Shown: positions 8,288 through 42,936 of the stretch, one piece after another
Layout: each line of letters opens with the position of its first letter
Numbering within the stretch: position 1 is the stretch's first letter
From: Magnetococcales bacterium WMHbinv6
GTDB lineage: Bacteria > Pseudomonadota > Magnetococcia > Magnetococcales > Magnetaquicoccaceae
DNA: 64,000 nucleotides
Reading direction: 5' to 3'
NCBI GenBank assembly: GCA_002753135.1
Contig: PDZV01000015.1
Location: forward strand, 1-64,000
Notes under the pieces: model-generated
What the model was told of the DNA's origin: nothing
The model's input: only the letters and a program-made list of their open reading frames with translations
The model's database searches: none
Translations under genes and position numbers: made by a program

Positions 8288-8839
8288 TCAGAACGGCTTG
8301 CGACCGTTGCCGATCCCTTGCCCGGCATCCAGAGTATCCAACTCCTGGGCCGAACTGCGAATCCGGCGTAAACGAATCTCGCCGTTGCTGGTGGTAAAGA
8401 TCAACTGGCGCGCCCACGGCCCGCCTACATCCGAGGCGGTCAGGTGGAGATGGTGGGCACGAATAAATGACATGGCGGTATCCACATTGCGCTTGCCGAC
8501 AGTAAAGCCCGGCAAATCCAGATGGGGGGCGGTACCGGTAAACATCATCGCCCCGCCAAACAATTTGACCTCCAACTCCTGCCGGGAAATGCCGCGCTGC
8601 TCAAAGCTGGCCAACAAAAAGGGCATGACACAGGAGAGATAGTCGCCCATCTCCCGACAGACCTTCACCCCCCCTGCCGGATGTTCACAGCTGCGACTGG
8701 CCCGTTTGCCGTGACAAATGGCCCCCAAACGACTGCGCGGATGATGCACAATCAATGAGACACAAGAGCCCAAAACGGTATGCACCTCGGCACCCACACC
8801 GATGAACAATTCGCCCGGATCCAGCCAAACGGTCTCCAT
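8288..8839 (-). CDS. cheD: CheD, chemoreceptor glutamine deamidase
   Basis: 183-residue cytoplasmic enzyme that deamidates receptor glutamines and, in many bacteria, binds CheC and stimulates its CheY-P phosphatase activity. The catalytic triad is readable as T21, C26 (VLGSCVSL) and H43 (GAICHGK), with the FGGA and VGGPWAR blocks later in the chain. It is the last gene of the minus-strand signalling operon, seven bases after a cheC-like gene, the expected partner. No chemoreceptor is encoded in the window, so its substrate is elsewhere or its role here is regulatory through CheC. Confidence 0.95.
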   Translation of the reverse strand: METVWLDPGELFIGVGAEVHTVLGSCVSLIVHHPRSRLGAICHGKRASRSCEHPAGGVKVCREMGDYLSCVMPFLLASFEQRGISRQELEVKLFGGAMMFTGTAPHLDLPGFTVGKRNVDTAMSFIRAHHLHLTASDVGGPWARQLIFTTSNGEIRLRRIRSSAQELDTLDAGQGIGNGRKPF

Positions 8840-8846
8840 GGCCTAT

Positions 8847-9512
8847 TTATTCCATTGAATCCGCCAAATAACGATCCAAGCCTGCCCGCAAATTGGGCAG
8901 GGCGGCACCATCCATCCACATCAACAAAGAGCCCGCCACCTGTTTGCCCAGCAAGGTAAAATCAACCCGCAACAACAACCATTGCTCCGCCTCTGCGGTG
9001 GCCGGATCTTCTGTCTGCGTCAACCCGCCAGGCAGCAAAAAGGGTTGCAATTCGGTGACAGTGCCGCGGTAATAGTGGGGCGCATCACACTCGATATCGG
9101 AGGACAACAAGGCACTGAAAGAGCTGACACAGGTATACAACAACACATCACCGGTGGATTGCATCGTCTCCCCTTCCACCTGGATCAGCACCTCATCCGG
9201 CAGCGGGCTGCCATAGAGCGCATCCAGCAAATGGGCAATCTCTGCTGCTCGAATCAGCAATACCGCCATGCCGGCAATGGAACGGTTTTCGCTGAAAACA
9301 AAGCGAAAACGCATGCCAACCACCCCGATGGCCATCCCGTACAAACCGGCCAGATGCGCCACCAACCGCGATTCGGACAACAGACTCATGCACGGGGGGG
9401 AGAGAGAAATTTCCCCATCCACCATTTCGCTCAAGGTGGCTGCCGCCCGTCCAAAGCTGAGATTGAACAGCTCCCGCAGGGCATCCTCCTCCATATCGTC
9501 CAGGCAGATCAT
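8847..9512 (-). CDS. CheC-like response-regulator phosphatase (one intact site)
   Basis: 221-residue CheC/CheX/FliY-family protein expected to dephosphorylate a phosphorylated CheY-like regulator. The consensus D/S-x3-E-x2-N-x22-P fits exactly in the N-terminal half (D10, E14, N17, P40). The corresponding second site is degenerate: E-x3-S-x2-D around ETMQSTGD, so its key Glu and Asn are lost. The ATG overlaps the upstream kinase stop (ATGA), giving translational coupling, and cheD follows by seven bases. It is one of two CheC-like genes in this operon, each retaining a single good site. Confidence 0.88.
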   Translation of the reverse strand: MICLDDMEEDALRELFNLSFGRAAATLSEMVDGEISLSPPCMSLLSESRLVAHLAGLYGMAIGVVGMRFRFVFSENRSIAGMAVLLIRAAEIAHLLDALYGSPLPDEVLIQVEGETMQSTGDVLLYTCVSSFSALLSSDIECDAPHYYRGTVTELQPFLLPGGLTQTEDPATAEAEQWLLLRVDFTLLGKQVAGSLLMWMDGAALPNLRAGLDRYLADSME

Positions 9513-10621
9513 CCCGGGATGACCTCTGCCGACTCACTGCCCGAGCGTGGCAGCCAGCAGGTAAACATGGCTCCCCGATCCAGATTGTTCTGCACCTGAA
9601 TTTCGCCACGATGGGCGTCGACAATTTTTTTTACGATCGACAGCCCCAGGCCGGTACTCTTCTCCTGTCCGGTGGGTTGGGTACTCAACTTTTCAAATAC
9701 GCCGAAGAGTTTATGCTGTTCCGCCTCCGGTATGCCGGGCCCTTGATCGACCACCTGCACAAAAATGCCCTGCCGTTGCTGACCGGTGCGCACCAGAACC
9801 ACCGAATGCAGGGGGGTAAATTTAATGGCGTTGCTCAACAAATTATCCACCACCTGGGCAATGCGTGCCCGATCAAAGCTGGTCGCCGGCGTCGGCTGCA
9901 AATCCGCCACCAGGCGCACCCCCTTTTTTTCGGCGGTAAAGGTCAACAAATGGACCCGCTCGGCCACCAGTTCGGCCATATCCCCCGCCGCCAAACGCAG
10001 GGCAAAAGTGCCGCTTTCGATAACGCTGACATCGAGCAAATCGTTGATCAGACCCAACATTTGACCGGCCACATTGTGGATGGTCTGAATAAAATAACGC
10101 CGCTCCTCCTCATCAAACTCCATCTGCAGCAGCAGTTCACTCAAGCCGGTGATCGAATTCAACGGGTTGCGCAGATCGTGGGCGGCAATACCCAACAATT
10201 TGTTTTTGGTGGCATTCAACTCCAGCAAATGGCTCTTCTGCCGCTGCAGCGCCAAATGGGTCTGAATGCGGGCCAGGGCCACCAACGGATTGAACGGTTT
10301 GCGGATAAAATCCACCGCCCCCACCTCCAGGCCATGGGTCTCATCCTCGGTGCTGCTTTTGCCGGTAATAAAAATCACCGGAATGCCTGCCGTTTCCGGA
10401 TCGCCTTTCAGCCGTTGACACACCTCATAACCATCCAGGCCCGGCATCATGATATCCAACAAAATCAAATCTGGACGGGGCGTGGCATGGGCTCTGCGCA
10501 ACGCCTGCTCCCCCGATTTGGCCACCAGAGTCCGATACTGTCCCTGCAACAATCCCACCAGAACGTCAATGTTGGTACTCTCATCATCGACGATCAAGAT
10601 ACGGGCCGCATCACTACGCAT
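9509..10621 (-). CDS. Response regulator-histidine kinase fusion (REC-HisKA-HATPase)
   Basis: 370-residue soluble kinase with an N-terminal receiver (phospho-acceptor Asp in [13 protein letters not shown]), then HisKA with the H-box [11 protein letters not shown], and HATPase with the N-box (LLSNAIKFT), G1 (DQGPGIP) and G2 (STGLGLSI) motifs. Its signal probably enters by phosphorylation of the receiver, for example from the neighbouring hybrid kinase. Start ATG 10621 is preferred over GTG 10630 because AGGAG lies eight to nine bases before it; it overlaps the end of the hybrid kinase. No membrane segment is present. Confidence 0.93.
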
Positions 10622-13376
10622 TCTCGCCACTCCTCTCTTCTGCGCCTCTCATCTCCACCGATCCCTGGCTTAACACCTGCCGCAACCGCGCAACACTCTG
10701 CATCGCATCCTCAAATTCATATTCATCCACCTGGGCAGCCAAACAGTCGATCTCTTTGCCGAACAAGTGCAAATCGGCCCACTGCCGCAGCTGCTCGACC
10801 AACTCTCGGGCGTCCGAATCGCCCTCTTCGATCATCCGTTGCAGGCGGTCCAACAAGTCGGTCAACGGCACGCTCTCCCATCCCTCCCCCTTGCCATCTC
10901 CCGCCCCTGCTGCCGCCTGCTGCGCCTGGCTCCAGGCGGCGATACCGGTCAGCACCTCCCGCAAGGCACGTTCCACCTCTTGCTGCAATACAAACCGTTC
11001 CGCCTGCTGCCCACTCCCTTTCCACACCTCTTCCAAAGAGAAAGCCGCCTGCTGGAGTGTCACAGCCCCGATCGTGCCGGCGACCCCCTTCAGCGTATGG
11101 AGCAGACGATGGGCAACCTCACCCTCCTCCCGGGCCTGCGCCTGTTGCAACCGTTCGAGAAAATCCCGGTTGCGCTGGTAAAAATCGGTCAAAATTTTCA
11201 GATACAAACGACGATTGCCATTCATGTTGCGCAAGCCACAGGCCAGATCAATACCCGGCAAACGTTCTGGCAAAAGAGGCTCCTCAGCAGCTGCTTGCGC
11301 CGTCGGCAGCGGCCCTTGCACGCTATTTACCCGACAATGGCGGGCCAGCGTGGCAAACAAATGCGGAGGCTGCACCGGCTTGCTGATATGGTCGTTCATC
11401 CCTGCCTGTAAACATTTTTCCCGATCACCGGCCATGGCGTTGGCGGTCATGGCAATGATCGGCAAGGTGGCAAAGCGCGCCTCGGCACGAATGGCCCGTG
11501 TGGCCGCATAGCCATCCATCACCGGCATCTGCACATCCATCAGCACCACATCAAAGGGGGCCTCCTTGACCGCCGCCACCGCCTGCTGGCCATCGGCAGC
11601 AATGCGTACCGTCATCCCCTCGCCGGTTAACAATTCATAGGCAACCTGCTGATTGAGTTCATTATCTTCCACCAGCAACACCCGAATGCCGCGCCAATCC
11701 CGTTGCGGCTCTTCCAGGCGCAAGCCCAACTCCCTGACCTCTGGTTCCGCCTGCTCCATCCCCTGCCCCAAAACCGATAACACCGTCTCAAAGAGCATGG
11801 ATAACGAAACCGGCTTGGTCAAAAAGCCTGCCACCCCCACCCCCTGGGCTGCCACCATCACATCCTCCCGCGAGTAGGCGGTTACCATGACAATTTTGGC
11901 GATGCGGGCATGGGGAAAACGGCGGTTGATCTCCCGCGTGGTACGAATGCCATCCATCTCCCCCATCTGCCAATCCAGAAAGATCAGCTGAAACGGTCGC
12001 CCCTTGCCGATGGCCCGCTCCATCTCAAAGAGTGCCTCTTCGCCAGAAGAGACACAGGTGACCTGAAAAGAGAAGGATTCAAAAGATTTTTGCAAAATCT
12101 CCCGCGAGACCGGATTGTCATCGGCCACCAGCACCCGCAAGCCCACCAACTCTTTTGAGGGCAAACGAAAGCGGCGCCGATCCCGATTGGCACGGGGAAA
12201 ACGGGCGGTAAAATGAAAATGACTGCCCGCCCCCGGCCAACTTTCCGCCCAAATGCGCCCGTGCATCATCTCCACCAGACGTTTGCAGATGGTCAACCCC
12301 AAGCCGGTACCACCGAAACGGCGGGTGGTCGAAGAGTCCGCCTGGGTAAAAGCGGTAAACAGCCGACCGAGCTGCTCCGCCGTCATGCCAATGCCGGTAT
12401 CCTGAACCTGGAAATGGAGGACCACCTGCGTCTCTTGCAGCTCCTCCACCCCCACCAGCACCGTAATATTACCCCGCCGGGTAAATTTTACCGCATTGTT
12501 GGTCAGGTTGACCAACACCTGTCCCAGGCGCAAGGCGTCGCCCAACAGAGTGAGCGGCACCTGGCGCTCGACATGAAAATTGACCTCCAGCCCCACCTCT
12601 TCCGCCCGCAACGCCACCAGATTGGCCACGTTATGCAGCACATCTTCCAGATGAAACGGCACCGACTCCATGGTCAACTTGCCTGCTTCAATTTTGGAAA
12701 AGTCCAGTATATCGTTGATAATGCCCAACAATGACTGGGCAGAGACATGCACTTTGCCCAAATAATCCCGCTGTTTGGCCGTCAATTCGGTTTTTAACGC
12801 CAAATGGGACATGCCGATGATGGCATTCATCGGCGTGCGAATTTCATGGCTCATATTGGCGAGAAAATCACTCTTGGCCTGGTTGGCCTCCTGTGCTGCC
12901 TCCTTGGCCGCCTGCAGCTGCAACGCCTGACTGCGCAGTACCTGCTCACGGGTCACCGTGTTGGTAATATCCTGGATTTGAATCAAACAATAGCGCTGCT
13001 CGTCAACATTGCGAATCGCTTTGATCATCACCAGCTGACTCATGCGGCGACTGCTGTCCTCCTGCTCCGAGGCTGTGTATAACGGAAAAGGGGTTGGCGT
13101 CAAACGGTGCGACAAGGTGGTCGGCAAACCGGTATGCAACGCACTCTCCACCGCACGGGCAATCCGTGTCGCCACCAATTCGGGAAACACCGCAAACAGG
13201 GGGCGGTAAAGCACCGCCGCCGCCGAGAGACGGGAACCGCGCTCCATCCAGTCGTTCCACAGCACAATCCGCTGCTCTGGATCGAGCAGAATCGTGCCAA
13301 CCACCCCGACATCCATGGCCCGCTGCAACAGAATGGCGTCCAACATCATGCCACCCTGGTCACCCTCAGAAAGCAC
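10614..13376 (-). CDS. PAS-hybrid histidine kinase with two receivers and HPt
   Basis: 920-residue soluble tripartite kinase. It has an N-terminal PAS-like domain (residues about 10-130, [19 protein letters not shown]), a coiled coil, HisKA with [15 protein letters not shown], HATPase with the N, G1 and G2 boxes, receiver 1 ([13 protein letters not shown]), receiver 2 ([13 protein letters not shown]) and a C-terminal HPt with [10 protein letters not shown]. All phospho-acceptors are present, so an intramolecular His-Asp-His relay is possible. It starts at GTG 13376, with AAGGTGA six bases upstream and an 11-base overlap with the preceding cheC-like gene; ATG 13349 is an alternative. No transmembrane segment, so it senses an intracellular cue or a partner protein. 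Confidence 0.94.
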
Positions 13377-14094
13377 CGATAATCACCTTCAACTCGCGTT
13401 TGAGAATTTCCATCGACGCCTGCGAAAACAACAACACCACAAAACCGCTCAACGTGTGCTGCATCCGCTCCTCGTCGTGGGTTTTGAAATCCATCATCAA
13501 GACAAAGGCCCGCTCCGCATCGCCACCCGACAAGGCCCGACGCTGGGCGGTCAAATGGGATTCCAGATCCAACAAAAACTGGCTGCTGCCACGTAAAAAT
13601 TCTGCCGCCTCAAACTCAAACTGCACCGACATCATCTGGGTAAAACTTTCCAGAAAGGCATTCAGCACCACATTGCCCACATCCAGCAAGGTCTCCTGCT
13701 CCAACTCCATCAACACTTCCAGCGGCATCTGTTCATTGAGCAAAGTGCGCACCAATTCCAGACTGCCTGCGCCAGGAAAAATCAACAGGGCGGTACCACT
13801 CAGCTCTCCGGTAAAATTTTGTCGAATGGCAACCAGTCTCTCCTCCTGCCCGGAGACCAACAGTCGGGTTGCCTCTTCATAGGAGGCAATGCGCAGTTGG
13901 GGTAACGACAACAACACTTCGTTATGGACCATCTCGCTCAGAGAGGCTGCCGCCATCCCCAGACCCATATTGAAAAACTCTTTGAGTGCATCCTCTTCCA
14001 ATTCGCTCAGCAGAAAGATCGATTGTCCGCCCTCTGTCGGCAGACACAACTGCTGCTTTGCCATCTCTGTTTTACCCTGCACCAAGGCATCCAT
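13366..14094 (-). CDS. Second CheC-like phosphatase
   Basis: 242-residue CheC/CheX-family protein. The N-terminal catalytic site fits the consensus perfectly (D35, E39, N42 and P65 at x22 spacing). The second copy, around [12 protein letters not shown], has Asp in place of the catalytic Glu and lacks the distal Pro, so it is probably weak or dead. A short N-terminal extension of about 30 residues precedes the domain. The start overlaps the regulator stop as TAATG, so the phosphatase is coupled to the CheY-like regulator it most likely acts on. Two CheC-like genes in one operon imply two regulators or two regulatory inputs. Confidence 0.88.
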
Positions 14095-14444
14095 TAACGC
14101 ATGATCTCCATCAGTTTATTCTCGGCAATCGGTTTTTTGATGAAACCAATGCCCAACGCATCGGCCTTCTGCTGCATCCGCTCCTGAATGTTGGCGGTGA
14201 CCAGATAGAGCGCCACGCCCGGATATTTGATCATCAATATTTCTGCCAACTCGATGCCGTTCATCCCCGGCATGTTGAAATCCAGCAAGGCCAGGTGCAA
14301 CGTTGTCTCGGCCAGAGACAAGGCCTCTGCACCATCCTTGGCTTCCACCAACTCCCAATCCGGGAAACGTGTGGTAACTATTTTGCGCACCATCATCCGC
14401 GCCAAACTGCTGTCATCAACCAGCAATACCCTCTTTTTATTCAT
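14094..14444 (-). CDS. CheY-like single-domain response regulator
   Basis: 116-residue receiver-only protein. The acidic pocket (VDDS), phospho-acceptor Asp in LALLDFNMPGMNG, switch Thr (LVTAN) and Lys (FIKKP) are all present. GGGGAG lies about eight bases before the ATG. It sits directly after the CheA-like gene and before a CheC-like gene, so the simplest reading is CheA phosphorylation and CheC dephosphorylation. It has no output domain, and whether it acts on the flagellar switch or passes phosphate on cannot be told from sequence. Confidence 0.93.
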   Translation of the reverse strand: MNKKRVLLVDDSSLARMMVRKIVTTRFPDWELVEAKDGAEALSLAETTLHLALLDFNMPGMNGIELAEILMIKYPGVALYLVTANIQERMQQKADALGIGFIKKPIAENKLMEIMR

Positions 14445-14459
14445 TGCCCACTCCCCAGC

Positions 14460-16160
14460 TCATGTCTCGCTCCAGGCTTGTATCAATTCCGGAATATTCA
14501 ATAAAAAAGAGACCGTTCCATCCGGCATCACCGCCGAACCTGCCAGTATGGTTATCCCGGATAACAGACGCCCCAACGGTTTGATGACCAGATTGGCCGG
14601 TTCCAGAATGGCCTCTACCGCCAAAGCAATCTTTTGCTCTTCCGCCTGCAGGATTACCACATGCAGATCCGTTGCCCGGCGGATCTGCGTCAACAACCTC
14701 TGATCCATCTCCTGCTCTACCGCCTCCTCCAGCACCCGCGCCAAAAGCACGATCGGAAAAATATGGTTGCGCACGCGCACCATCGGCGCGTCCATTTTGC
14801 CTTCCACCTGCTCTCGCACCTCTTTGCCGTGATAAGAGACCAGCTCAACGATGCCAGCCTGCGGGATGGCATAGGTTTCTCCCAGGGCACGCACCAGCAA
14901 AACCGGCACAATGGCCATCGTCTGTGGGATGCGGATGCGAAAACGTGAACCACTGCCGGGTTCATTGTTGATGGTGATCGTCCCGCCGAGTTTGTCGATG
15001 GAAGATTGCACAACATCCATCCCCGTGCCACGACCGGAAATTTTGCTCACCTGATCGGCGGTGGAAAAACCTGGCAATAAAATGAGGCGCAGCAACTCTG
15101 CCTCTTTCATCTCCCAGGCCCGCTCTTCGCTCAACAACCCCTTGTCGATGGCCTTGGCCCGCACCTTGCGCACATCGACTCCCCGGCCATCGTCGCTGAT
15201 CTCCAAATAGACCTGACCCTGCCACTGCCAGGCCGATAGCTGCACCCGACCCACCGGAGATTTGCCTTTTGCTGCCCGCTCCTCCGGCAGCTCAATGCCG
15301 TGATCAATGGCGTTGCGCAGCAAATGCCCCAAAATTTCCTTGACCACAATCAAAACATTGCGATCCACTTCGGTCTCTTCGCCCTGCAGCTCCAGTAACA
15401 CTTTTTTTTTGCGTTCGACCGCCAAATCACGCACCAGACGGTGGTAACTTTCCCATACCCGCCCGATCGGCTGCAAACGATAGCGCAACACCTCATCCTG
15501 CAAATTTTGGATCTGTTGGCCCAATCCCTCCATGGCCGGATCCACCTGCGACGGTTGTTGCGCCAGGGCATATTTCAATTGATTGAAGCCTGCCCCCAAC
15601 TCGCCGACATGGTTCATCAACGCATCAAGACGATCAATCGATAAACGGATCGAATCCAGGCGGTTGGCCGTCGCCTCCCCCTCTGCCACCATACCGGTCA
15701 GGATGATGCCCTCGGCCTCTGTCGCCGCGCCATCCTCCTCTTCAGGCAACGATTCCTCTTCCGCCGCCTGGGCAATCAACCGCTCCAACTGGCGGATCAA
15801 GGGGGCAAAAGCACACTCCCCCTCTGTACCACTCTGCTCGATCACCAGCAGCGTGCGCCGTACCGCATCCAAAACCAGCAACAAACCACTGCCTATCTCC
15901 TGATCGATACGCAAGCGGCCCGAACGCAACTGATCCAATAACGATTCTGCCGTATGGGTCAACTCCTCGAGTTGCGTAAACTCCATCATCCGGCAATTGC
16001 CTTTGACCGTGTGCATGTCGCGGAAAACAGCATGCAACAAGCCATGATTGCCCGGCATCCCCTCCAACTGCAGCAAACCCTGCTCGATCCGATCCAACGC
16101 CTCGCGGTTTTCGGAAAAAAATTCCTGCATCAATGCCTGTTGGGTCGCCTCGTCAAACAT
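14460..16160 (-). CDS. cheA: CheA-like chemotaxis histidine kinase
   Basis: About 566-residue kinase with an HPt (P1; phospho-His about residue 50 in MHTVKGNCRMM, where CheA usually has HTIKGGAG), a linker without an obvious CheY-binding P2 domain, a dimerisation P3 helix pair, a P4 ATPase (N-box LLRNAIDHGIELP, G1 ISDDGRGVD, G2 GRGTGMDVV) and a C-terminal CheW-like P5. ATG 16160 is chosen, but a GTG at 16184 would add eight residues. It is the first gene of the signalling operon. Missing P2 and an altered P1 surround suggest a dedicated kinase rather than the main chemotaxis CheA. Confidence 0.93.
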   Translation of the reverse strand: MFDEATQQALMQEFFSENREALDRIEQGLLQLEGMPGNHGLLHAVFRDMHTVKGNCRMMEFTQLEELTHTAESLLDQLRSGRLRIDQEIGSGLLLVLDAVRRTLLVIEQSGTEGECAFAPLIRQLERLIAQAAEEESLPEEEDGAATEAEGIILTGMVAEGEATANRLDSIRLSIDRLDALMNHVGELGAGFNQLKYALAQQPSQVDPAMEGLGQQIQNLQDEVLRYRLQPIGRVWESYHRLVRDLAVERKKKVLLELQGEETEVDRNVLIVVKEILGHLLRNAIDHGIELPEERAAKGKSPVGRVQLSAWQWQGQVYLEISDDGRGVDVRKVRAKAIDKGLLSEERAWEMKEAELLRLILLPGFSTADQVSKISGRGTGMDVVQSSIDKLGGTITINNEPGSGSRFRIRIPQTMAIVPVLLVRALGETYAIPQAGIVELVSYHGKEVREQVEGKMDAPMVRVRNHIFPIVLLARVLEEAVEQEMDQRLLTQIRRATDLHVVILQAEEQKIALAVEAILEPANLVIKPLGRLLSGITILAGSAVMPDGTVSFLLNIPELIQAWSET

Positions 16161-16355
16161 GCCTGCCCCATCCTGATCACACACCCTGCCCGTATCCTGC
16201 GCTTGCGTTGCGCAGATTAGTCCTTATACTGCCTTAAAAACAAGGATTCCGACAAAAAATCATTTTATCCCTTGCAAGAAGCATGATAACCTTGTTGCAA
16301 ATTCTGCAATTCGGCAAATCAAGTAAAACAAGAAACATTTTCAGAAAGGCCTGCC

Positions 16356-19037
16356 ATGCAACCGGATCTCCAGCATATTCTGATCGTTGACGATGAGCCA
16401 ATCTATCAAGAATTACTCAAAGCTCTTCTGCAGCATCACTATCGCATCTCACTGGCCGATAACGGGCTGCAGGCGCTGCACGCCAGCAACCAGGAACCCC
16501 AACCGGACCTGATCCTGCTGGATATCCGCATGCCGGAACTTGACGGCCTGGAAGTGTGTCGGCGTCTGAAAGAAAATCCGGCAACGCGATCTATCCCGGT
16601 AATTTTTGTCAGCGGTGCCGACCAGACCGGACACGAAGCGATGGGCTTTGCCGTCGGCGCGGTCGATTATATCAGCAAACCGATCAACCCTGCCGTGCTG
16701 GCTGCCCGCCTCAATACCCATCTCTCCCTGGCCAAACAACGTCGTCTGCTGGCCCAGCAAAGTCAATTGCTGGAACAACAGGTGCAAGAACGAACCCGCG
16801 CCCTGGAACTGGCACAGGATAAATTGCGCGAATCGGTGGACAACCTGTTGATTATCCCGATTGCGCCGGGCGTCTTTTGGCTGCAAATTCCCGAAGCCGA
16901 CCTCTACATTCTCTGCGGCTGCCCCAGCGAGGTGGTCAAATTGTTGATGCGCAAGGGACTCAATACCAGCGCTGTCAAAAACGGTGTCACCTTTGAAACC
17001 GGCCCCAACGCCATCCTGCTCTCGGACCTGTTGATCCAAAACGGCAGCTTTGCCAATCTGGCGGAATTTCCCGTGCTGCAAATGCTCTACCGCCAGGGGA
17101 TGATGATTCCCGGCCATCCCAACAACAGCGGCGTCAAACCGTTGCTGATCGGCTCCGCAGAACAACTGCAGGCGCAACTGGGTTATATCCATCGCGGCAA
17201 CTATGGCCTGCTCAACAAAGAAGAGATTATGGCCTGCGGCATCGATGCGACTACCGCCGACAACATGATGCGCATCAAACTGAAGTTTGCCTTTGGCAAA
17301 ATTCGCAACCCCACCGACTTCATCGATACCCTGGAACTGGATGATCAACAACGGGAGATTCGTAACGGTGTCTTTATCCGGCGCATCGGCTTCAACCATT
17401 TTCGTTTCAGCTATCGGCAACAACAGGCCGACATCAACCTCAATCTGCTGCCGGATCAAACCTATCAAGCCCCCTATCCCCTGGGCCACCACCGCCTGAA
17501 ACGGCACTATTTTGCCGTGTTGCATACCGGTGTCGGCGACGGCTGGGATCCAGACCGGCCCAGCATGAGCAGCGTGCTGATGTTTCAGGGGCGAATCTAT
17601 CTGATCGATGTGGTACCAGGTATCAGCCACATTCTCAACGCCATGGGCATCGGCATCAACGAATTGGCCGGTGTTTTTCACACCCATGCCCACGACGACC
17701 ATTTTGCCGGCTTGCCGGAACTGATCCGGACCGATCGGCGCATTCACTATTTTGCCACCCCGCTGGTGCGCGCCTCAGTCAGTAAAAAATTTGCCGCCCT
17801 GCTCTCCATCGACGAAAACAAATTTGAGCAGTTTTTTGCCATCCACGATCTGCAGTTTGACACCTGGAACCGCATCGATGGCCTGGACATTATGCCGCTG
17901 TACTCGCCGCACCCGGTGGAAAACAATTTGCTGCTCTTCCGTGCCCTCGGTGAAGATGGCTACCGAACCTATGCCCACTGGGCCGATTTGACCAGCTACG
18001 AAATACTCGATCGGATGAGTGGCCCTGGTGAGCAGGATGTGCCAGCCGCCTTTATCGCCAAAATCAAGGCCGATTATCACTACCCTGCCGATTTGAAAAA
18101 ATTGGATATCGGTGGCGGCCTGATCCATGGCAAAGCCGAAGATTATGCCAACGACCACTCCAAACGGCTCATTCTGGCCCATTTGGCCCGTCCTCTGACC
18201 CACACGGAAATGACCATCGGTTCCGCCGCCTCCTTTGGTGCGGTGGATATTCTCATCTCCGGAGAACAGGATTATCGTCGGCAACGCATCTTCTGTTATC
18301 TCAAGGATCTTTTCCCGAATGTCGACGATTGCGAAATTCGCATGCTGACCAACGGTCACATTGTCAACCATAACGTCGGGGCCATCATCCGCCAGGATAC
18401 CGACGAAGACGACGGCTTTATCGATCTGGTGGCCGCCGGTGAATTTGTCTATCGGGAGGCAAAAAGTGGCGTCTGCAGCCATCTCGGTTTCGGCTCTTTT
18501 CTCGGTCTGCGTCGTCTCTACGACGTGATTCATCCCGACGAAGGGGTCTATCTGGCCGAATCGCATGGCTCTCTGCTGCGTATCCCCATCTTCATGTTCA
18601 AAATTTTTCTGCAGGAAAACAGGCTGGAAAAGGCTTTCTCCAACGCCCTGCACACCATTCGTTTTTTGAACCGCACCCGTCTGTTCGGTGAACGGGTTTC
18701 GTTTACCATGCTGTTTCATATCGCCGAGGCGATGCAGCAGGTCACCCTCGCCGACGGTCAGTGGATCGAGCAGTCGATGGCAAACCCCACCCTTTGGATC
18801 GTCAGCCAAGGGCGCGTCGCCCTGCTCGACGAGGAGGGACTGGAACAGGAGTGTATCGAAGGTAACGGCTTTTTCGGGGAACATACCTATCTGCATCTGC
18901 CACGCCCGTGGCGTTTTCAGTGCAAAGGGGAGTGCAGCCTCTATCAACTCACTTGGCACAAACTGCTGCAAGCGCCGATCCTGCATTGGAAATTGCTGGA
19001 GAGTTGCCAGAAACGAACCAGCCTGACCCTGGCCTGA
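16356..19037 (+). CDS. REC + metallo-beta-lactamase + cNMP-binding-like fusion protein
   Basis: 893-residue protein read divergently from the CheA operon. Residues 1-120 are a receiver (Asp in LILLDIRMPELDG), 125-160 a coiled coil, then a long region ending in a metallo-beta-lactamase fold with THAHDDHFAG as the metal motif, further candidate ligands in YSPHPVENN, HWADLTS and LTNGHIVNH, and a C-terminal segment (about 770-885) resembling a cyclic-nucleotide-binding beta-roll (GRVALLDEEG, GNGFFGEH). The MBL part resembles the di-iron flavodiiron-like branch rather than a hydrolase, by inference. GAAAGG precedes the ATG. The 195-base divergent gap shows no promoter I can defend. This is a plausible output or sensor of the neighbouring operon. 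Confidence 0.82.
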   Translation: MQPDLQHILIVDDEPIYQELLKALLQHHYRISLADNGLQALHASNQEPQPDLILLDIRMPELDGLEVCRRLKENPATRSIPVIFVSGADQTGHEAMGFAVGAVDYISKPINPAVLAARLNTHLSLAKQRRLLAQQSQLLEQQVQERTRALELAQDKLRESVDNLLIIPIAPGVFWLQIPEADLYILCGCPSEVVKLLMRKGLNTSAVKNGVTFETGPNAILLSDLLIQNGSFANLAEFPVLQMLYRQGMMIPGHPNNSGVKPLLIGSAEQLQAQLGYIHRGNYGLLNKEEIMACGIDATTADNMMRIKLKFAFGKIRNPTDFIDTLELDDQQREIRNGVFIRRIGFNHFRFSYRQQQADINLNLLPDQTYQAPYPLGHHRLKRHYFAVLHTGVGDGWDPDRPSMSSVLMFQGRIYLIDVVPGISHILNAMGIGINELAGVFHTHAHDDHFAGLPELIRTDRRIHYFATPLVRASVSKKFAALLSIDENKFEQFFAIHDLQFDTWNRIDGLDIMPLYSPHPVENNLLLFRALGEDGYRTYAHWADLTSYEILDRMSGPGEQDVPAAFIAKIKADYHYPADLKKLDIGGGLIHGKAEDYANDHSKRLILAHLARPLTHTEMTIGSAASFGAVDILISGEQDYRRQRIFCYLKDLFPNVDDCEIRMLTNGHIVNHNVGAIIRQDTDEDDGFIDLVAAGEFVYREAKSGVCSHLGFGSFLGLRRLYDVIHPDEGVYLAESHGSLLRIPIFMFKIFLQENRLEKAFSNALHTIRFLNRTRLFGERVSFTMLFHIAEAMQQVTLADGQWIEQSMANPTLWIVSQGRVALLDEEGLEQECIEGNGFFGEHTYLHLPRPWRFQCKGECSLYQLTWHKLLQAPILHWKLLESCQKRTSLTLA

Positions 19038-19054: not shown

Positions 19055-19633
19055 TTAACGGATCAGGATACCGGCAAAAACCAAAAAAGCCGCCCCGGCA
19101 ACCCCACCCAGCCAAATGGCGCGGGGCCAGGAGATGCCGAATACATTATGCAGTCCAAGGGCGGTGAGAAAGACCTCGACCGCCAATACGGTGATATGCC
19201 AGGGGATGATCACCGAAAATCCACCCCAACCTATCTTGACCAGAAGAACATCCAACGGCAGACAGGGCAGCCACGGCCCAAAAAAACAGAGACCAACCAA
19301 CTCCCAGGTTTTGCGAAAGGTCATCGGTTTGATGGTGGCATGCGGCTCACCCCGTACCCAGACCAGATAGACAGTACCGGTCATGATGAGCAGCCCATAG
19401 GGACCATACAAAAAAATTTCAATGAACCGATAGAGATCGGGATCAATACCGAAGGGAACCGGCAACAGCATCGGACTGCGTTCCTGATACATGCTGACCA
19501 TGGTGGTCAACGCTGTCGATTGCCAGCGGAAAAACTGCAACAAAATGGCAAGCCGCAACAGATCATAGCCGCGCAGACGGGTAAACAGACCCGCCGGTTG
19601 CAACAGGAAAAACATCAGCAGGTAACGGATCAC
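19055..19633 (-). CDS. Hypothetical inner-membrane protein
   Basis: 192-residue protein with about five hydrophobic segments (LLMFFLLQPAGLF, FIEIFLYGPYGLLIMTGTVYLVW, LVGLCFFGPWLPCLPLDVLLV, ITVLAVEVFLTALGLHNVFG, AIWLGGVAGAAFLVFAGILI). The organisation is weakly Yip1-like, but I do not assign a family. The start GTG 19633 overlaps the stop of the MBL hydrolase gene (GTGA), so the two are translationally coupled and may work together. It ends 17 bases from the convergent REC-MBL gene. Confidence 0.75.
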   Translation of the reverse strand: MIRYLLMFFLLQPAGLFTRLRGYDLLRLAILLQFFRWQSTALTTMVSMYQERSPMLLPVPFGIDPDLYRFIEIFLYGPYGLLIMTGTVYLVWVRGEPHATIKPMTFRKTWELVGLCFFGPWLPCLPLDVLLVKIGWGGFSVIIPWHITVLAVEVFLTALGLHNVFGISWPRAIWLGGVAGAAFLVFAGILIR

Positions 19634-20577
19634 CCGGCCCGCTCCCGCCAGATGCGCAACCCCTGGGCATTCAGGGCGCAATCCATCGTCAACCAGTCGC
19701 GACAGACCGCCTCCGACACCAAGGGCTGCCCGTTGTGCTGCAGCTCCTGCCAGGCCAGTTGCTGCAACGCCTCCTGCAGAGCCGACTCCCCCTCAGGCTG
19801 ACCGACATAGCGCCCGCTCAAGGCGGCAAACTGATCCAACAGGCGATGCAAACGATCGGTCAATAGCGGGTTGAAGGGAATACGCCCGAAATGGGTGACA
19901 AAATTCCAGCGGGCTCCCAAGGCGGCCAAACGGTCCAGCGTCTGGTGGCTGGCGGCAAGATCAAACTGCACCGGGGTGGTCGCCGGCATCAACAACAGCT
20001 CCTCCCCCTGATCAAACAGCCGATAAGAGATGCCCGCCGCATCACCGGAAAAAATACCGCCACTCTGCGCATCCCAGATACAGTGGTGATGGTTGGCATG
20101 TCCCGGGGCATCGATAAACTGCAGGCGACGTCCGTTGAGCAGATAAACTTCGCCATCGCCCACCGCCCGCGTCCGCTGCCCATCCGCCGGGGTGATGCCC
20201 CCCAATATGGTTTCAAACTGTTCCGCACCGTAAACCGCTTCTGCCCCGGCCTGCAATTTGGCCGGTTCCAGCAGATGGCGAATTCCCTTGGGATGGACCA
20301 GCAGTTCGGCGTTCGGCAAATGGCGCTGCAGGGCACCGGCACCGCCGGCATGGTCCAGATGGACATGGGTGACCAGAATTGCCCGCACCTGTTCCTTGGC
20401 CACCCCGGCAAAAGCCAAAGCCTGCAACAAGACCGGCACCGCCCGACTGGGGCCCGTTTCGATAAAAACGGCCTCCTCCCCCTCCACCAACAGATAGCTG
20501 GCGGCAAAACCGGCCCGCCAATAGCCGGTATCGATGCGGATAATCCCATCGGGATAACGTGCAAACGGTGTTGTCAT
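19630..20577 (-). CDS. MBL-fold metallo-hydrolase
   Basis: 315-residue cytoplasmic metallo-beta-lactamase-fold protein. Metal ligands are visible as THVHLDHAGG (about residues 70-79), DAPGHANHH, FSGDAAG and FVTHFGR. The C-terminal 80 residues form a helical extension. Substrate is not evident; glyoxalase II-like thioesters, lactones or a repair-type substrate are all possible. It is the first of two coupled genes with the membrane protein at 19055-19633. The 341-base gap to the divergent TonB receptor holds a perfect long inverted repeat (20733-20766). Confidence 0.88.
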   Translation of the reverse strand: MTTPFARYPDGIIRIDTGYWRAGFAASYLLVEGEEAVFIETGPSRAVPVLLQALAFAGVAKEQVRAILVTHVHLDHAGGAGALQRHLPNAELLVHPKGIRHLLEPAKLQAGAEAVYGAEQFETILGGITPADGQRTRAVGDGEVYLLNGRRLQFIDAPGHANHHHCIWDAQSGGIFSGDAAGISYRLFDQGEELLLMPATTPVQFDLAASHQTLDRLAALGARWNFVTHFGRIPFNPLLTDRLHRLLDQFAALSGRYVGQPEGESALQEALQQLAWQELQHNGQPLVSEAVCRDWLTMDCALNAQGLRIWRERAG

Positions 20578-20918: not shown

Positions 20919-23138
20919 ATGACAAAGCAGAAATGGTCGTTGCTGGGGCTTTCGTTGTTGCTTGCGCTCCCCTATCGCCCACTGGCGGCAGAAGAGAGCG
21001 CCAGCAAAACCACCTCTTTGCAGGAGGTGGTGGTCACCGCTCCGGCAGAGCAGGAGAGCAGCCATGCCCAGCACAAGATGCAGGAAAAAGAGATTGCGCC
21101 TCTGCGCCACGGCAGCGACGATGCGGTAAAAATGATTTCCCATCTGCCTGGCATGAGCAGTTATGGCGGCGGTGGCGTTTCTGGCCTGCCGGTCATGGAT
21201 GGTCTGGGCGATGATCGCCTGCGCACCCAGGTGGATGGCATGGATCTGGTCTCCTCGTGCGCCAACCATATGAATCCTCCGCTCTCCTATATCGCACCGG
21301 CCAACGTGGGCTCGATTACGGTGTTCAATAATGTCTCTCCGGTCAGTGTCGGCGGTGACAGCCTGGGCGGGGCCATTCAGGTCAACTCCCGCGCCCCGGT
21401 ATTTGCCAAACCGGGAGAGGAGACGCTGTTCAAAGGAGAAGCCGGGGCCCACTACAGCAGCAACGGCGATGGTTACGGCTTCAACCTCAGCACCACCCTG
21501 GCCAACAGCAAGGCCAGCATGACCTATACCGGCAGCAGCGCACAAGCCGACAACTATACGGCGGCACGCGCTTTCAAAGCGCCCGCCGCAGCCAGCAACG
21601 GTGCCAGCAGTACCGCCGCCGATGAAGTCGGCACGACCCTGTATAAGAGTTATAACCATGCTCTCAATCTGGCCATGCAGGGCGATGCACGCCTGCTGGA
21701 ACTGCAACTGGGGCTGCAGGAGATTCCCTACCAGGGCTTTGCCAACCAGCGCATGGATATGACCGACAACCACAGCGAACGGATCAACCTGCATCACCAG
21801 GAACAACTCTCCTGGGGTCTGTTGGATAGCCGTCTGTACCGGGAGCATACCCGGCACAGCATGAATTTTCTGGAGAACAAGAGGTATTGGTATGGCGCAA
21901 CCAATAACGCCCCCGGCATGCCGATGGAGACCGAAGGGGAAACCTTGGGTGCCATCGTCAAGGCAGAGATCAACCTGGCAGATCATGGCCTGTTACGTGT
22001 AGGCGGTGAATACCAACGCTATCGCCTGGACGATTGGTGGCCACCCTCGGGAACGGGAGGCATGTCTCCCAACACCTTCTGGAACATCAACAATGGCCAA
22101 CGGGATCGCTATGATCTTTTCGGCGAATGGGAAAAAGAGTGGAACCCGCAGTGGCAAAGCCGGTTGGGCCTGCGCAGCGCCAATGTGGTCATGGACACCG
22201 GCAGTGTGCAAGGGTACAACACGGGTGCCACCTATGCCACCGATGCGGCCCTTTTCAACAGCAGCAACCGTTCGCAAACCGATCATAATTGGGATGCCAC
22301 CGCCTCTACCCGTTTTACTCCCGATAACAGCAAAACCTTCGACTTCGGCATTGCGCAAAAAACCCGCTCACCCAATCTCTATGAACGTTATGCCTGGTCA
22401 CATGGAACCATGGCCTCTGCCATGGTCAATCTGGCTGGCGATGGCAACGGCTATGTCGGCAATCTGAACCTTAGACCAGAAATTGCCCGCACCCTCAGCA
22501 TCACCGCCGACTGGCACGATCCCGGCAAAAAATGGGGCGTCAAAATCACCCCCTACTACAGCAAGGTGGCAGATTTTATCGACGCTGCCGTCACCACCAC
22601 CTCCCCTGCAGGGGGGGCGACCGGCTCCTACAAGGTGCTGCAATTTGTCAACCAGGATGCCACCCTGTATGGTATCGATCTCTCCGCCTTCATGCCCCTC
22701 TGGTCCTCTCCGACCTATGGCGACTTTGCCGCCAGCAGCACTGTCAGCTATGTTCGGGGTAAAAATGACGACACGGGCGGCAATCTGTACAACATCATGC
22801 CGCTAAACGGCAAACTCTCCCTTGATCACCAGCGGGATAACTGGGGCAGCAACCTGGAGTGGCAACTGGTGGATGGCAAGAGGGAAACTGCTGCCGTGCG
22901 CAACGAGGTAAAAACCGCCGGATACGGTCTGCTCACTCTGAAAACCCATTACGATTGGCAACAAATGCGCTTCGGCGTTGGTGTGGAAAACATTCTCGAT
23001 CAATACTATGAACATCCCCTGGCCGGACGTTATGTGGGACAGGGCAGCACCATGAGCCTGTCAACCGGCCCGCAATACGGCTTCAACGTACCCGGTCCTG
23101 GTCGATCCTTTCTGGCGGAAATGTCGGTCAAGTTTTGA
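20919..23138 (+). CDS. TonB-dependent copper receptor (OprC/NosA-like)
   Basis: 739-residue outer-membrane receptor. Signal peptide 1-24 (cut after LAA), TonB box near LQEVVVTA (34-41), plug domain about 45-190, then a 22-strand-type barrel ending in an aromatic-rich terminus with C-terminal Phe. The OprC copper site is readable: C114-x3-M118 in CANHM followed by NPPLSYI in the plug, and H313-x-M315 in the barrel, at the spacing known for OprC. ATG 20919 has AAGGAA before it; an upstream in-frame start would spoil the signal peptide. A 12-bp-stem terminator follows. This supports copper uptake rather than siderophore uptake. Confidence 0.88.
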   Translation: MTKQKWSLLGLSLLLALPYRPLAAEESASKTTSLQEVVVTAPAEQESSHAQHKMQEKEIAPLRHGSDDAVKMISHLPGMSSYGGGGVSGLPVMDGLGDDRLRTQVDGMDLVSSCANHMNPPLSYIAPANVGSITVFNNVSPVSVGGDSLGGAIQVNSRAPVFAKPGEETLFKGEAGAHYSSNGDGYGFNLSTTLANSKASMTYTGSSAQADNYTAARAFKAPAAASNGASSTAADEVGTTLYKSYNHALNLAMQGDARLLELQLGLQEIPYQGFANQRMDMTDNHSERINLHHQEQLSWGLLDSRLYREHTRHSMNFLENKRYWYGATNNAPGMPMETEGETLGAIVKAEINLADHGLLRVGGEYQRYRLDDWWPPSGTGGMSPNTFWNINNGQRDRYDLFGEWEKEWNPQWQSRLGLRSANVVMDTGSVQGYNTGATYATDAALFNSSNRSQTDHNWDATASTRFTPDNSKTFDFGIAQKTRSPNLYERYAWSHGTMASAMVNLAGDGNGYVGNLNLRPEIARTLSITADWHDPGKKWGVKITPYYSKVADFIDAAVTTTSPAGGATGSYKVLQFVNQDATLYGIDLSAFMPLWSSPTYGDFAASSTVSYVRGKNDDTGGNLYNIMPLNGKLSLDHQRDNWGSNLEWQLVDGKRETAAVRNEVKTAGYGLLTLKTHYDWQQMRFGVGVENILDQYYEHPLAGRYVGQGSTMSLSTGPQYGFNVPGPGRSFLAEMSVKF

Positions 23139-38814: not shown

Positions 38815-40266
38815 TTAACGCTTCAACGACAATAACTCTTCCAACATGCCGTCCACCACCGAAACGATGCGGGAGTTGGCCTGGAAACCACGTTGCGTGG
38901 CAATCATGCGCACAAATTCACCCGACATGTCCACGTTGGACTGCTCCAGGGAGTAGGAGACAATGCTGCCCAGACGGTCCCCTTCTGGTACGTTGGTATG
39001 CGCCGCACCGGAGGCTGTGGTTGCGGCAAACAGGTTGCTCCCCTTCTGGGACAACGCCGTCTCATCGTCAAAGTCGGCCAGCGTTATCTGACACAGATCT
39101 TTGCTGCGACTGTTGGTGTAGTTGCCGGTAATGATACCGTCAGCACCAATGGAAATTTTATCCAGATTGCCCCGGGGAAAACCGTTCTGATCCAATTTGG
39201 TGGTGGCAAACCCTCCGAAGACGCTGGTCGAACCACTGCTGCTGCTCGTCGAAGTGTCGACATTCCAGGAGGTCAGGGTGGAATCATACGTTAAATCGGT
39301 ATCCTCTTTCAGCGCGTAGTCGTTGCTCGCATCGCCGCCATCACCCACAGCCTGGCCAAAATCGACCAGAATATCCTGGGCACTGGTGCCACCCAGGAAC
39401 TGCACCGTCATCGGCGTCGAACCTTCGCGCAACAAGCGGCCATGATCATCAAACTCCAACAAACCCGGCGTGTAGGGGGTGGTTGGCGTCGTGCCATTGG
39501 CTGGCACCGAACCAAAAGTCAACACCTGCATGCCGGTCGCACCAGAAGTGACCTCGCTGGCCTGCACCGCTGCCTGCCACTGCCACATGCTGTCACCGAT
39601 TTTGCGGAACTGAATCTCCAGATTGTGACCGGCACCAAGCGAATCATAAACCCGTACCGCAGTGGAAAAATTATAGGTACCTGAATCTTCCGGATCAAAA
39701 TTTGCCGCCGGATCAAACACGGTCGCCGAGGTGTCCAGATTGACGCCCACATTGACCATCGTTGTCGCCAATCCCGCGTCCCGCTCAAACGGTTTCAGGT
39801 TGATGTCGATCGGGGTCATGCTGGATCCGATCTCTTTGCCCTGCAACACCATACCACCGGGTGTCACCAGATAGCCCTGTTCGTTTTTGCGGAAGTTGCC
39901 GGCCCGGGTATAAAAGGTATCCACCGGTGTACCCGTCGAATCGGTTCTGCCCGCCGCTTTCAAATCCTTGACGGTGAAAAAGCCACGGCCATCAACCGAC
40001 AGATCGGTCACGTTGACCGTCGGTGCAAACGACCCCTGGGTCATGTTTTGCTGTACCGCAGCCAATCCCATACCGGTACCCACCTGGTTGGCGTTACCGG
40101 CCCCGCTGTTGCCGACCGTTTGGATCAAAACATCTTCAAAAGAGGCTTGGCTCGACTTGAACGCCGTCGTATTGGAGTTGGCCAAGTTGTTACCAATGAC
40201 CGTGATCGACTCACTGAAGTTGGTCAATGCGCTGGCACCCGCATACATTGCTTGTGTAATGGACAT
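38815..40266 (-). CDS. flgE: Flagellar hook protein FlgE
   Basis: 483-residue hook subunit. The N-terminal rod/hook motif (SITQAMYAGASALTNFSESI, then GNNLANSNTTAFK), a TDLSVDGRGFF block, a variable central domain with a Ser-rich stretch (STSSSSGSTS) near residue 340, and the C-terminal LEQSNVDMSGEFVRMIATQRGFQANSRIV block are all present. The ATG lies 82 bases after the flgD stop. Size is moderate for the family, and the domain order shows no truncation. Confidence 0.97.
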   Translation of the reverse strand: MSITQAMYAGASALTNFSESITVIGNNLANSNTTAFKSSQASFEDVLIQTVGNSGAGNANQVGTGMGLAAVQQNMTQGSFAPTVNVTDLSVDGRGFFTVKDLKAAGRTDSTGTPVDTFYTRAGNFRKNEQGYLVTPGGMVLQGKEIGSSMTPIDINLKPFERDAGLATTMVNVGVNLDTSATVFDPAANFDPEDSGTYNFSTAVRVYDSLGAGHNLEIQFRKIGDSMWQWQAAVQASEVTSGATGMQVLTFGSVPANGTTPTTPYTPGLLEFDDHGRLLREGSTPMTVQFLGGTSAQDILVDFGQAVGDGGDASNDYALKEDTDLTYDSTLTSWNVDTSTSSSSGSTSVFGGFATTKLDQNGFPRGNLDKISIGADGIITGNYTNSRSKDLCQITLADFDDETALSQKGSNLFAATTASGAAHTNVPEGDRLGSIVSYSLEQSNVDMSGEFVRMIATQRGFQANSRIVSVVDGMLEELLSLKR

Positions 40267-40348
40267 ACTGTTCTCCCAAAATGCGTTGGACGTGCCGAAC
40301 GTTGCCGCCCGGCATCAATGCAATTTTCTCTCTTTATCGATCAACGGG

Positions 40349-41023
40349 TCACCCCGGTGTATTGCTCAACTCAAGCCGTGTCACATCCGACAACGCCACC
40401 TGCCGATCCCCCAACTGCAACAAAATGCCAGAGGTGCCATTATTGATCACCCCGGTTACCTGCTGCGCCTGCAGGGTACTCAAGGCGGTCTGGCTGCCAT
40501 CATTTTCCAGCAGCGATACGGCAAACTGATAGTTGCCATCTGCCGCCGCAATGCCACCTACGGCCAGATTTTTCTCGCCTGCCTGAACATTTTGCACATC
40601 CGTACTCTTGATCAACTGACCAAACTGATTGTAAATGCGAATGTTGACATCGCCCGTGGTCGGCATCTGGAAACGAACCGCCGCAGAACCACTTTTGACC
40701 GCCGTCTCGTTGCCGGAACCAATCACCCACTTGCCCATGTAGGAGACGGCCTGATTCATCCCTCCGGTCCCCTGTACGTCCAACAGCTTCTGCAACAGAT
40801 CGTTGCTGCGATTCTGGGCATCCAGACTGCTGAATTGTGCCATCTGCGAAGTGAATTGCGTGTTGTCAGTCGGGCTGAGCGGATCCTGATATTGCAATTG
40901 GGTCGTCAACAACTTTAAAAAGTCCAACTGCAGCTGTTGCGCACTCTTTGTCGAATTGTTTCCCGAACCGCTGCTCGTACCTGTCGTTGTCGGAATCGCG
41001 CCAAATAGCGGAGTCGTTGCCAT
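40349..41023 (-). CDS. flgD: Flagellar hook scaffolding protein FlgD
   Basis: 224-residue hook-cap protein needed for hook polymerisation. The conserved N-terminal block (DFLKLLTTQLQYQDPLSPTDNTQFTSQMAQFSSLDA, split over residues 34-68) is diagnostic, followed by the FnIII-like and tudor-like domain with GDVNIRIYNQFGQLI and DGNYQFAVSL. Standard position between fliK and flgE. The 291-base gap to fliK holds no gene I can support. Confidence 0.96.
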   Translation of the reverse strand: MATTPLFGAIPTTTGTSSGSGNNSTKSAQQLQLDFLKLLTTQLQYQDPLSPTDNTQFTSQMAQFSSLDAQNRSNDLLQKLLDVQGTGGMNQAVSYMGKWVIGSGNETAVKSGSAAVRFQMPTTGDVNIRIYNQFGQLIKSTDVQNVQAGEKNLAVGGIAAADGNYQFAVSLLENDGSQTALSTLQAQQVTGVINNGTSGILLQLGDRQVALSDVTRLELSNTPG

Positions 41024-41314
41024 GCCGTTCTCTCCTTAACCTACTCGAATGTCTTAACTTTCTTGACCAGCCTGTTCAATACTCATACCTCTGTGCTGCA
41101 CCATGGCCCGTGTGTACGCCCGCCCCGACACAGCAACAGGGCCATGTGCTGCCACCACAACACCTAACCCGAAAAACCCTCTGTCAGCCTTTGCAGTCTG
41201 CGATCCACCCGTTGCCAGTGACACAGCAGCGCACTGCTCATCTTGTCGCCGATGGTCCGTCGTCTGCGGCCAAAGCTCTTGTCTGAAAACTTTTGCCCGC
41301 GCACAAAACAAGAG

Positions 41315-42739
41315 CTAGACGATAATACTGACCCCCTCGCTGGCCGAAATGATCGGCCTGTGCATCGTTTCCACTGGATCGACCCGTACCGCATCCTCAT
41401 GCAAGCGACCGGAACCGCGTGCCAACAACTGCTCCCGTTGCGCCTGTTGATCGGCATAGCTCCACTGCGCGGCTGCATAGTGATCCTGCTGCCCCTGATC
41501 ACCGACCTGCACGATCACCTCACCAAAACCCATCTCCTGCCGCGCCAGCGCATCCCGCAACTGCCCCAACTGCCGATGCAACAGATCTTTGGTCATCTCC
41601 GATTCCGTGGTGATCAACAGATGGACCTGATGCTGCCCGTCCACCCGCAAGCGCAAATCAATGCTGCCCAAATTTTCCGGGGTTAAAGTCACCCGCAACT
41701 GATCGGTCATGCCGCCACGATTCAACAGGCGCATCTTGCCTACCCGATCCAGCAACTCATCGGCAAACTGCGGCGAATCGGCTGACAATTTCCCGCCGCC
41801 TGCCACTTCGCGACCGCCAGACGTCAGCCGCAAGGAGGTATCCGTAGTGCTGCTCCCTCCGCTCACCGCTTGCAACTTGCCCAATACCTCTGCAACCTCA
41901 TCCTGGGCACCCGCTTTTTCTACCACGCGCACCTGCATCATTTTTTCCACCAACTGGGCCATGTTGGCCGTGGGCAACAGGGCCGCTGCGGTTTTGCTCC
42001 CGGCATCCATCATGACGGCAGGGATCACCTCTCCCTCACCAGCAGCTTGCCCGCCCACCCCAAGCAGGGACAATTGCATGATCAACTCTTCCGCTGTCAG
42101 GGCACCTCGATCGGGCGTCTCGCCATGCGCCTCAGCGCCACCGTTGGCAAGCGCTGCTGCCAGCATACCCAAACGGGTCACAACCTGACCCGACATGTCC
42201 AGGCCATGCCCACCATCGACGCCGTGCGCCGCATCCCCCCCCTTGCCGCGCACCATTTCGCGCCTGGTCGCGTCCTCCCCATCGGCAGCTTTTTCGGCAG
42301 ATTCTGCCGCCTCAACCGAGCGGTCCTGCGCCGCATCGCCATCCTCGACCGCCTGAGCCGAGAGATCTTCATCGACATCGGCCTGCGCCTGCTTCTCCGT
42401 CGCTTTCAGCGGCGCACGCTCCGTCTTGACCTTGTCGACCGGACTCTCGCTGCCGCGCGTCTCCGTCGTCGACTCTTTGCCTCCCTTGGACGCAGCAGCC
42501 TCACCCCTTTTTTCAACCGGCACCCGACGGCGCTCCACCTTGCCGCTATCCGCCTGTCCGACAGCCGCTTTGACCGGATTGGTTTTACCCCCCCGCGACG
42601 GATTCGCCAGCAGCGACCCCAACGTCTGATCAAAAGAGGGCACCGCCCCATCTGCGGGCGCGTTCGATAATCTGCTCAATACCGCCATCCAGTCGATCGT
42701 CGCCGTCGACGATGACGCAGTGACACTCGTAGGAGTCAT
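41315..42739 (-). CDS. fliK: Flagellar hook-length control protein FliK
   Basis: 474-residue secreted ruler protein. The first 250 residues are low-complexity, rich in Ala, Glu, Lys and Gly with no fold, as expected of the ruler region. The C-terminal Flg_hook domain (about 350-430: LRVTLTPENLGSIDLRLRVDGQHQVHL, then LRDALARQEMGFGEVIVQVGDQG) assigns the family. ATG 42739 is chosen because GAGGA lies eight bases upstream; the frame is open further but would add a cysteine-rich non-FliK-like leader. It is the first gene of the flagellar run. Confidence 0.9.
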   Translation of the reverse strand: MTPTSVTASSSTATIDWMAVLSRLSNAPADGAVPSFDQTLGSLLANPSRGGKTNPVKAAVGQADSGKVERRRVPVEKRGEAAASKGGKESTTETRGSESPVDKVKTERAPLKATEKQAQADVDEDLSAQAVEDGDAAQDRSVEAAESAEKAADGEDATRREMVRGKGGDAAHGVDGGHGLDMSGQVVTRLGMLAAALANGGAEAHGETPDRGALTAEELIMQLSLLGVGGQAAGEGEVIPAVMMDAGSKTAAALLPTANMAQLVEKMMQVRVVEKAGAQDEVAEVLGKLQAVSGGSSTTDTSLRLTSGGREVAGGGKLSADSPQFADELLDRVGKMRLLNRGGMTDQLRVTLTPENLGSIDLRLRVDGQHQVHLLITTESEMTKDLLHRQLGQLRDALARQEMGFGEVIVQVGDQGQQDHYAAAQWSYADQQAQREQLLARGSGRLHEDAVRVDPVETMHRPIISASEGVSIIV

Positions 42740-42922: not shown

Positions 42923-42936
42923 TTTCATGCACCGCT

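Follow-up and report, generated by a model that had tools for sequence, protein, structure and literature searches.

A gene of the Magnetococcales bacterium WMHbinv6 stands divergently beside a CheA-type kinase operon, and its product joins a phospho-receiver (REC) to a metallo-beta-lactamase (MBL) domain and a C-terminal cyclic-nucleotide-binding (CNB) region. This arrangement poses a question: Is the protein an output of the chemosensory kinase, or does it supply the operon with an oxygen or redox input? A preliminary description of this DNA had proposed both roles as candidates. We addressed the question by computational analysis of a window of 64,000 nucleotides (contig PDZV01000015.1, the whole stretch of DNA analysed), together with homologues of the protein and of its neighbors.

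Results

Domain anatomy of the fusion protein

The open reading frame was found exactly as originally described (Table 1), and it is conserved at full length in relatives: a homologue in Ca. Magnetaquicoccus is 84% identical to the window protein, and those of the sister genus are about 55-60% identical. The AlphaFold2 model of the window protein, computed from an alignment of 50 sequences comprising the window and locus proteins, has a mean pLDDT of 88.4, and a second model, restricted to residues 160-668, has a pLDDT of 90.6. The phospho-receiver is matched by Pfam PF00072 over residues 8-119 (E 1.6e-26) and carries the complete signature, with the acidic pair D12 and D13, the acceptor D56, S86 and K108; its best PDB match is the REC domain of PleD. 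The coiled coil reported to follow it appears in the model as a continuous helix (residues 112-160), and the model also supports an MBL fold and C-terminal CNB beta-rolls, the latter by a match to the tandem CNB domains of PKA regulatory subunits (PKA-R). The fusion of REC, MBL and CNB modules is thus confirmed as real and conserved, with an anatomy richer than first described.

Table 1. Positions of the fusion gene, its domains and predicted metal ligands, the divergent che operon, and other genes of the window
Feature	Position	Strand	Remarks
REC-MBL-CNB gene	16356..19037	+	ATG start; 893 aa; REC, coiled coil, unnamed domain, MBL, CNB, CNB
REC receiver domain	16371..16718	+	residues 6-121; phospho-acceptor D56; PF00072
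Coiled-coil linker	16719..16835	+	residues 122-160
Unnamed conserved domain	16848..17438	+	residues 165-361; no Pfam model
Active-type MBL domain (predicted)	17511..18350	+	residues 386-665; PF12706/PF00753 and Foldseek
HxHxDH metal motif H444-A-H446-D-D448-H449	17685..17702	+	four predicted ligands, identical in 50/50
Predicted metal ligand H519	17910..17912	+	identical in 50/50
Predicted bridging ligand D544	17985..17987	+	identical in 50/50
Predicted metal ligand H609	18180..18182	+	identical in 50/50
CNB1	18354..18650	+	residues about 667-765; degenerate ligand cassette, no Glu/Arg
CNB2	18702..19034	+	residues about 783-893; G-E 841-842 retained
CheA-type kinase (Hpt, dimerisation, HATPase, CheW)	14460..16184	-	Pfam; divergent neighbor of the REC-MBL-CNB gene
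CheY-like REC protein	14094..14444	-	Pfam
CheX/CheC-like protein	13366..14094	-	below Pfam cut-off; conserved in operon
Hybrid kinase PAS-HisKA-HATPase-REC-REC-Hpt	10614..13376	-	Pfam
REC-HisKA-HATPase kinase	9509..10630	-	Pfam
CheC-like protein	8847..9512	-	just under Pfam cut-off
CheD	8288..8839	-	Pfam
208-aa ORF	19055..19681	-	between the two MBL genes; no Pfam match
Second MBL gene	19630..20577	-	315 aa
TonB-dependent receptor	20919..23135	+	adjoins second MBL gene
Flagellar hook genes FlgE, FliK	38818..42928	-	
REC-SpoIIE-HATPase response regulator	45554..47368	+	

The predicted metal site

The MBL domain is matched by PF12706 and PF00753, barely over their cut-offs, at about residues 410-515, a stretch that includes the THAHDDH sequence (residues 443-449) noted in the preliminary description. 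All seven predicted metal ligands, namely the four of the HxHxDH motif and the more distal His, Asp and His that had also been pointed out, are identical in 50 of 50 aligned homologues, which span Magnetococcales, other Pseudomonadota, Thermodesulfobacteriota, one spirochaete and one Nitrospirae bin. Motif, distal ligands, Pfam matches and modelled fold agree in assigning the domain to the MBL-fold metallo-hydrolase superfamily.

Within that superfamily, three kinds of comparison point in the same direction. The profile search placed the arylsulfatase 8gyg, Apyc1, ELAC1 and RNase Z nearest; comparison with NCBIfam placed RNase Z nearest; and Foldseek returned RNase Z, arylsulfatase, YhfI, the PhnP family, ELAC1 and Apyc1 first, with RNase Z as the best single fold match (E 3.0e-12) and Apyc1 at a TM score of 0.74 by target length. 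The class II phosphodiesterases of MBL fold include Apyc1, YhfI, yeast PDE1 and RNase Z; their HxHxDH motif holds two zinc ions, and Apyc1 and YhfI cleave cyclic mononucleotides (PMC9117128). By sequence and modelled fold, the domain appears closest to this hydrolase branch, which also includes RNases and an arylsulfatase; RNase Z, PhnP and arylsulfatase are as near to it as Apyc1 in the profile, NCBIfam and fold comparisons.

These results go against the original suggestion that the MBL part resembles oxygen-binding di-iron members of the superfamily rather than hydrolases. No flavodiiron protein is among the matches listed from sequence and fold searches, and the flavodiiron-type HxExDH motif, in which the second metal-ligand position is Glu81 (PMC13133992), is absent: all 50 homologues have HxHxDH, with His at the equivalent position. 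We therefore dropped the di-iron reading, since the nearest relatives are hydrolases and the flavodiiron Glu is replaced throughout.

The same evidence bears on the possibility that a di-iron site in this protein binds O2, as in the oxygen sensor ODP, and informs CheA. ODP is an MBL-fold protein, as its Pfam entry also records, and the hosts of the present family are mostly magnetotactic, microaerophilic lineages. ODP of Treponema denticola sets a precedent for an oxygen sensor tied to chemotaxis (PMC7666581), and other members of the present family bear a C-terminal hemerythrin. We nevertheless consider such an oxygen input improbable: the closest folds and sequences are hydrolases; the invariant His stands against a flavodiiron-like site, in a ligand comparison made with flavodiiron proteins; and the window protein lacks the hemerythrin and has a REC domain of its own, the mark of a phosphate receiver.

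Just downstream, a second MBL gene exceeds the Pfam cut-offs for ODP and Lactamase_B. The best PDB matches of its product are PqsE thioesterases, and within the genus the gene is conserved, at 78% across the portion present in locus L007.

The domain preceding the MBL

The unnamed domain is marked by the motifs CGCP, ETGPN, HPNN and RGNYG, and its invariant residues include C187, G216-P217-N218, Q274, Y277, G281 and G284; five members searched gave no Pfam match at E<=10. The order of its helices and strands resembles that of the first MBL half (p 0.0004 versus shuffled order), and ELAC2, the human two-domain RNase Z, aligns over the unnamed domain and the MBL together (TMq 0.53, though with an rmsd of 14 Å). 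From this secondary-structure order and the ELAC2 match, the unnamed domain is possibly a metal-free MBL half-domain. It could also redirect specificity. An internal duplication of the MBL found no support at the level of sequence: hhalign of the two domains gave Prob 0.5 (Neff only 2.3), which did not exceed the values of the shuffled or permuted controls.

The match to ELAC2 over two domains, the first rank of RNase Z among single folds, and the equal closeness of arylsulfatase and PhnP to that of Apyc1 would all suit a REC-controlled enzyme with another substrate: an RNase, a 2',3'-cyclic or oligonucleotide phosphodiesterase, or an enzyme acting on some other ester. We regard this as unlikely, though deserving of some weight, because the tandem CNB domains and the fusions to signalling inputs suggest a second messenger, and no RNase Z exosite arm was recognized in the protein.

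Tandem CNB domains

The C-terminal beta-roll was correctly recognized as being of the cyclic-nucleotide-binding type, on the evidence of both the family profile and the AlphaFold model, but it is not a single domain: there are two. The window protein itself remains below the PF00027 cut-off; family members reach it, in two stretches per protein. Searched by profile, the family aligns with the tandem CNB domains of PKG and PKA-R (E 5e-31), and the best Foldseek matches of the whole AlphaFold model are PKA regulatory subunits.

The ligand cassette (Glu and Arg) was assigned by spacing in the alignment, not from a ligand-bound structure. On this basis eight sequences retain the CNB1 Glu together with an Arg 9-11 residues later, four of them being hemerythrin-type proteins and four not. 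CNB1 has lost the cassette in 10 of the 10 che-linked sequences checked, the window protein included, with Leu or Ile replacing the Glu. In CNB2 the Gly-Glu pair is present in 44 of 49 sequences and the spacing to Arg is irregular. The window protein accordingly lacks a regular cassette in either domain: CNB1 is without Glu and Arg, and CNB2 keeps its Glu with an irregularly spaced Arg. Nucleotide control of the window protein thus appears doubtful. In relatives with a canonical-looking CNB1 cassette, nucleotide feedback is plausible by analogy.

Loss of the CNB1 ligand residues in che-linked members might also suggest a protein without catalytic activity, serving as a scaffold or as a nucleotide sensor, in which the MBL and CNB domains relay a signal to kinases, flagellar proteins or other partners. 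All the metal ligands and many other residues of the MBL and unnamed domains do not vary among the 50 sequences, which come from several phyla; this argues for catalysis and leaves the scaffold, in our estimate, only a slim chance.

Linkage to the CheA operon

The divergent che operon (Table 1) has no receptor, stand-alone CheW, CheR or CheB among its genes. Ten loci of the sister genus (L086-L095) carry the REC-MBL gene within the che operon itself, co-directional and placed between the REC-kinase gene and cheC; contig ends interrupt two of these loci. In the window's own genus the gene lies divergently beside cheA in three genomes. At 11 of 12 close CheA loci it is no more than about 10 kb away on the same contig, and at the twelfth (G014) it is on a separate 3.2-kb contig. 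Four own-genus genomes (G003-G006) lack both CheA (at >=60% identity) and any copy of the gene above 57% identity. In a tree of 52 cores, a single che-embedded copy (G007:C42) falls outside the main che clade.

The expected co-occurrence with CheA thus holds among these close relatives, and it does not hold for other families of the order. CheA orthologues are present in 34 of 48 Magnetococcales genomes, and in the other families they have no such gene adjoining, as judged from contig and position. Universal co-occurrence with CheA is therefore rejected. The linkage is strong within the window's family and does not extend operon-wide across the order: it is a property of that family.

Of the two roles first proposed for the protein, this context favors the output. 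It is the sole REC protein of the che operon that bears an effector module, and because it combines its own REC with that module, we favor an output over an input.

A core with exchangeable modules

The core of the protein is not confined to this locus: its own genome holds five copies, namely the window gene, one without an input domain, a second REC copy, one with SBP_bac_3 and one with hemerythrin. Every one of the 48 Magnetococcales genomes searched carries at least one family copy. A sample of the phylum, 399 genomes in all, gave matches in 55, of which 48 belong to Magnetococcales and seven do not. Relatives beyond the order include Desulfatibacillum, Desulfobacteraceae, Rhodospirillaceae, Rhodocyclales and one spirochaete. 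Our literature search found no description of a bacterial MBL-CNB-CNB family.

The input module on the core varies (REC, SBP_bac_3 or none), and a C-terminal hemerythrin, a separate domain and the family's sole link to oxygen, is often present. The tree of 52 cores requires ten module changes, versus 26 with shuffled labels: the core exchanges its modules, but these still group by clade. Because different modules are swapped on a common core, the core looks like an output module. In several paralogues (L004, which is C11 of the own genome, L012 and L054-L056) a periplasmic SBP_bac_3 domain precedes the core; these proteins, as read from their sequences, are sensors with an MBL-CNB output. The hemerythrin paralogue (L005/L082, C40 of the own genome) has two CNB domains and adjoins a CheB-methylesterase/REC/kinase fusion and a REC-kinase. 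In paralogue L051 of the same genus (G001:C38), one in-frame TGA is reported inside the matched frame.

Six class III cyclases are encoded in the genome, along with many further CNB proteins, so a cyclic-nucleotide messenger likely exists in this organism; none of the cyclases is on the contigs that bear the five paralogues.

Discussion

Taken together, how might these modules operate? We propose that the window protein is an output enzyme under REC control: a hydrolase resembling class II phosphodiesterases, with a PKA-R-like tail and the layout of the Dictyostelium proteins GbpA and GbpB. We judge this proposal to have an even chance of being right. Weighing against it are the generic hydrolase character of the MBL matches, the lost or irregular CNB cassettes, an unnamed domain that could redirect specificity, CheA orthologues elsewhere in the order with no such gene adjoining, and the absence of cyclases from the contigs of the five paralogues. 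CheA and the hybrid kinases encoded in the neighboring operon would phosphorylate the REC domain, thereby altering the activity of a binuclear-metal MBL of class II phosphodiesterase/RNase Z type. The most likely substrate of the MBL would be a cyclic mononucleotide or a similar phosphodiester, and the two PKA-R-like CNB domains behind it would form a regulatory tail. In relatives that retain the CNB1 cassette (those of hemerythrin type and several other proteobacterial members), feedback activation by substrate, as in GbpA and GbpB, is plausible; in che-linked members, because that cassette is lost, phosphorylation has probably taken over or combines with control through CNB2.

It is instructive to set this proposal beside known systems. 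GbpA and GbpB are phosphodiesterases that degrade cAMP and cGMP and are activated by cyclic nucleotides, with an MBL domain followed by two CNB domains; GbpA has a part in cGMP control during chemotaxis, and Dictyostelium also has RegA, a phosphodiesterase of a different class that is under REC control (PMC11988041). Compared by described layout, GbpA and GbpB have the same order of MBL catalytic domain and two CNB domains as the bacterial family, and both groups belong to cytosolic signalling. No REC is described for GbpA and GbpB (PMC11988041), whereas the bacterial family has the unnamed domain in addition, as well as modules of REC, SBP or hemerythrin type. Apyc1 and YhfI share the binuclear HxHxDH site (predicted here) and similarity in profile and fold, but they have no REC or CNB domain, and identity is only 14-17%. 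RNase Z, ELAC1 and ELAC2 offer the best Foldseek match, that of ELAC2 over both halves, and likewise differ in having no CNB or REC domain, in an identity of 10-18%, and in their exosite, which is not seen here. PKA-R and PKG have two serial CNB domains and are the best PDB profile and fold matches; here, by contrast, the ligand residues are partly lost, and the pair is joined to an MBL domain and does not act on a kinase. ODP and the flavodiiron proteins share the MBL fold, and the family differs from them in the His that replaces the flavodiiron Glu, in its REC domain, and in their absence from the matches listed.

A fuller version of the proposal would have the chemosensory kinase set cAMP or cGMP through a REC-switched phosphodiesterase made up of two MBL units, one metal-free and one active, followed by a PKA-R-like tail, and would make the same core, attached to hemerythrin or periplasmic sensors, an unrecognised bacterial family of cyclic-nucleotide turnover with the GbpA/GbpB layout. 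This version is tentative, and we think it possible rather than probable. If cyclic nucleotides are indeed turned over, a CheA-type kinase would act via a second messenger, in an order known for magnetotaxis. The core, found throughout the Magnetococcales genomes searched and joined to several input modules, belongs to a family covered today only by generic domain matches, and it offers a candidate bacterial counterpart of the amoebal MBL-CNB-CNB phosphodiesterases of chemotaxis.
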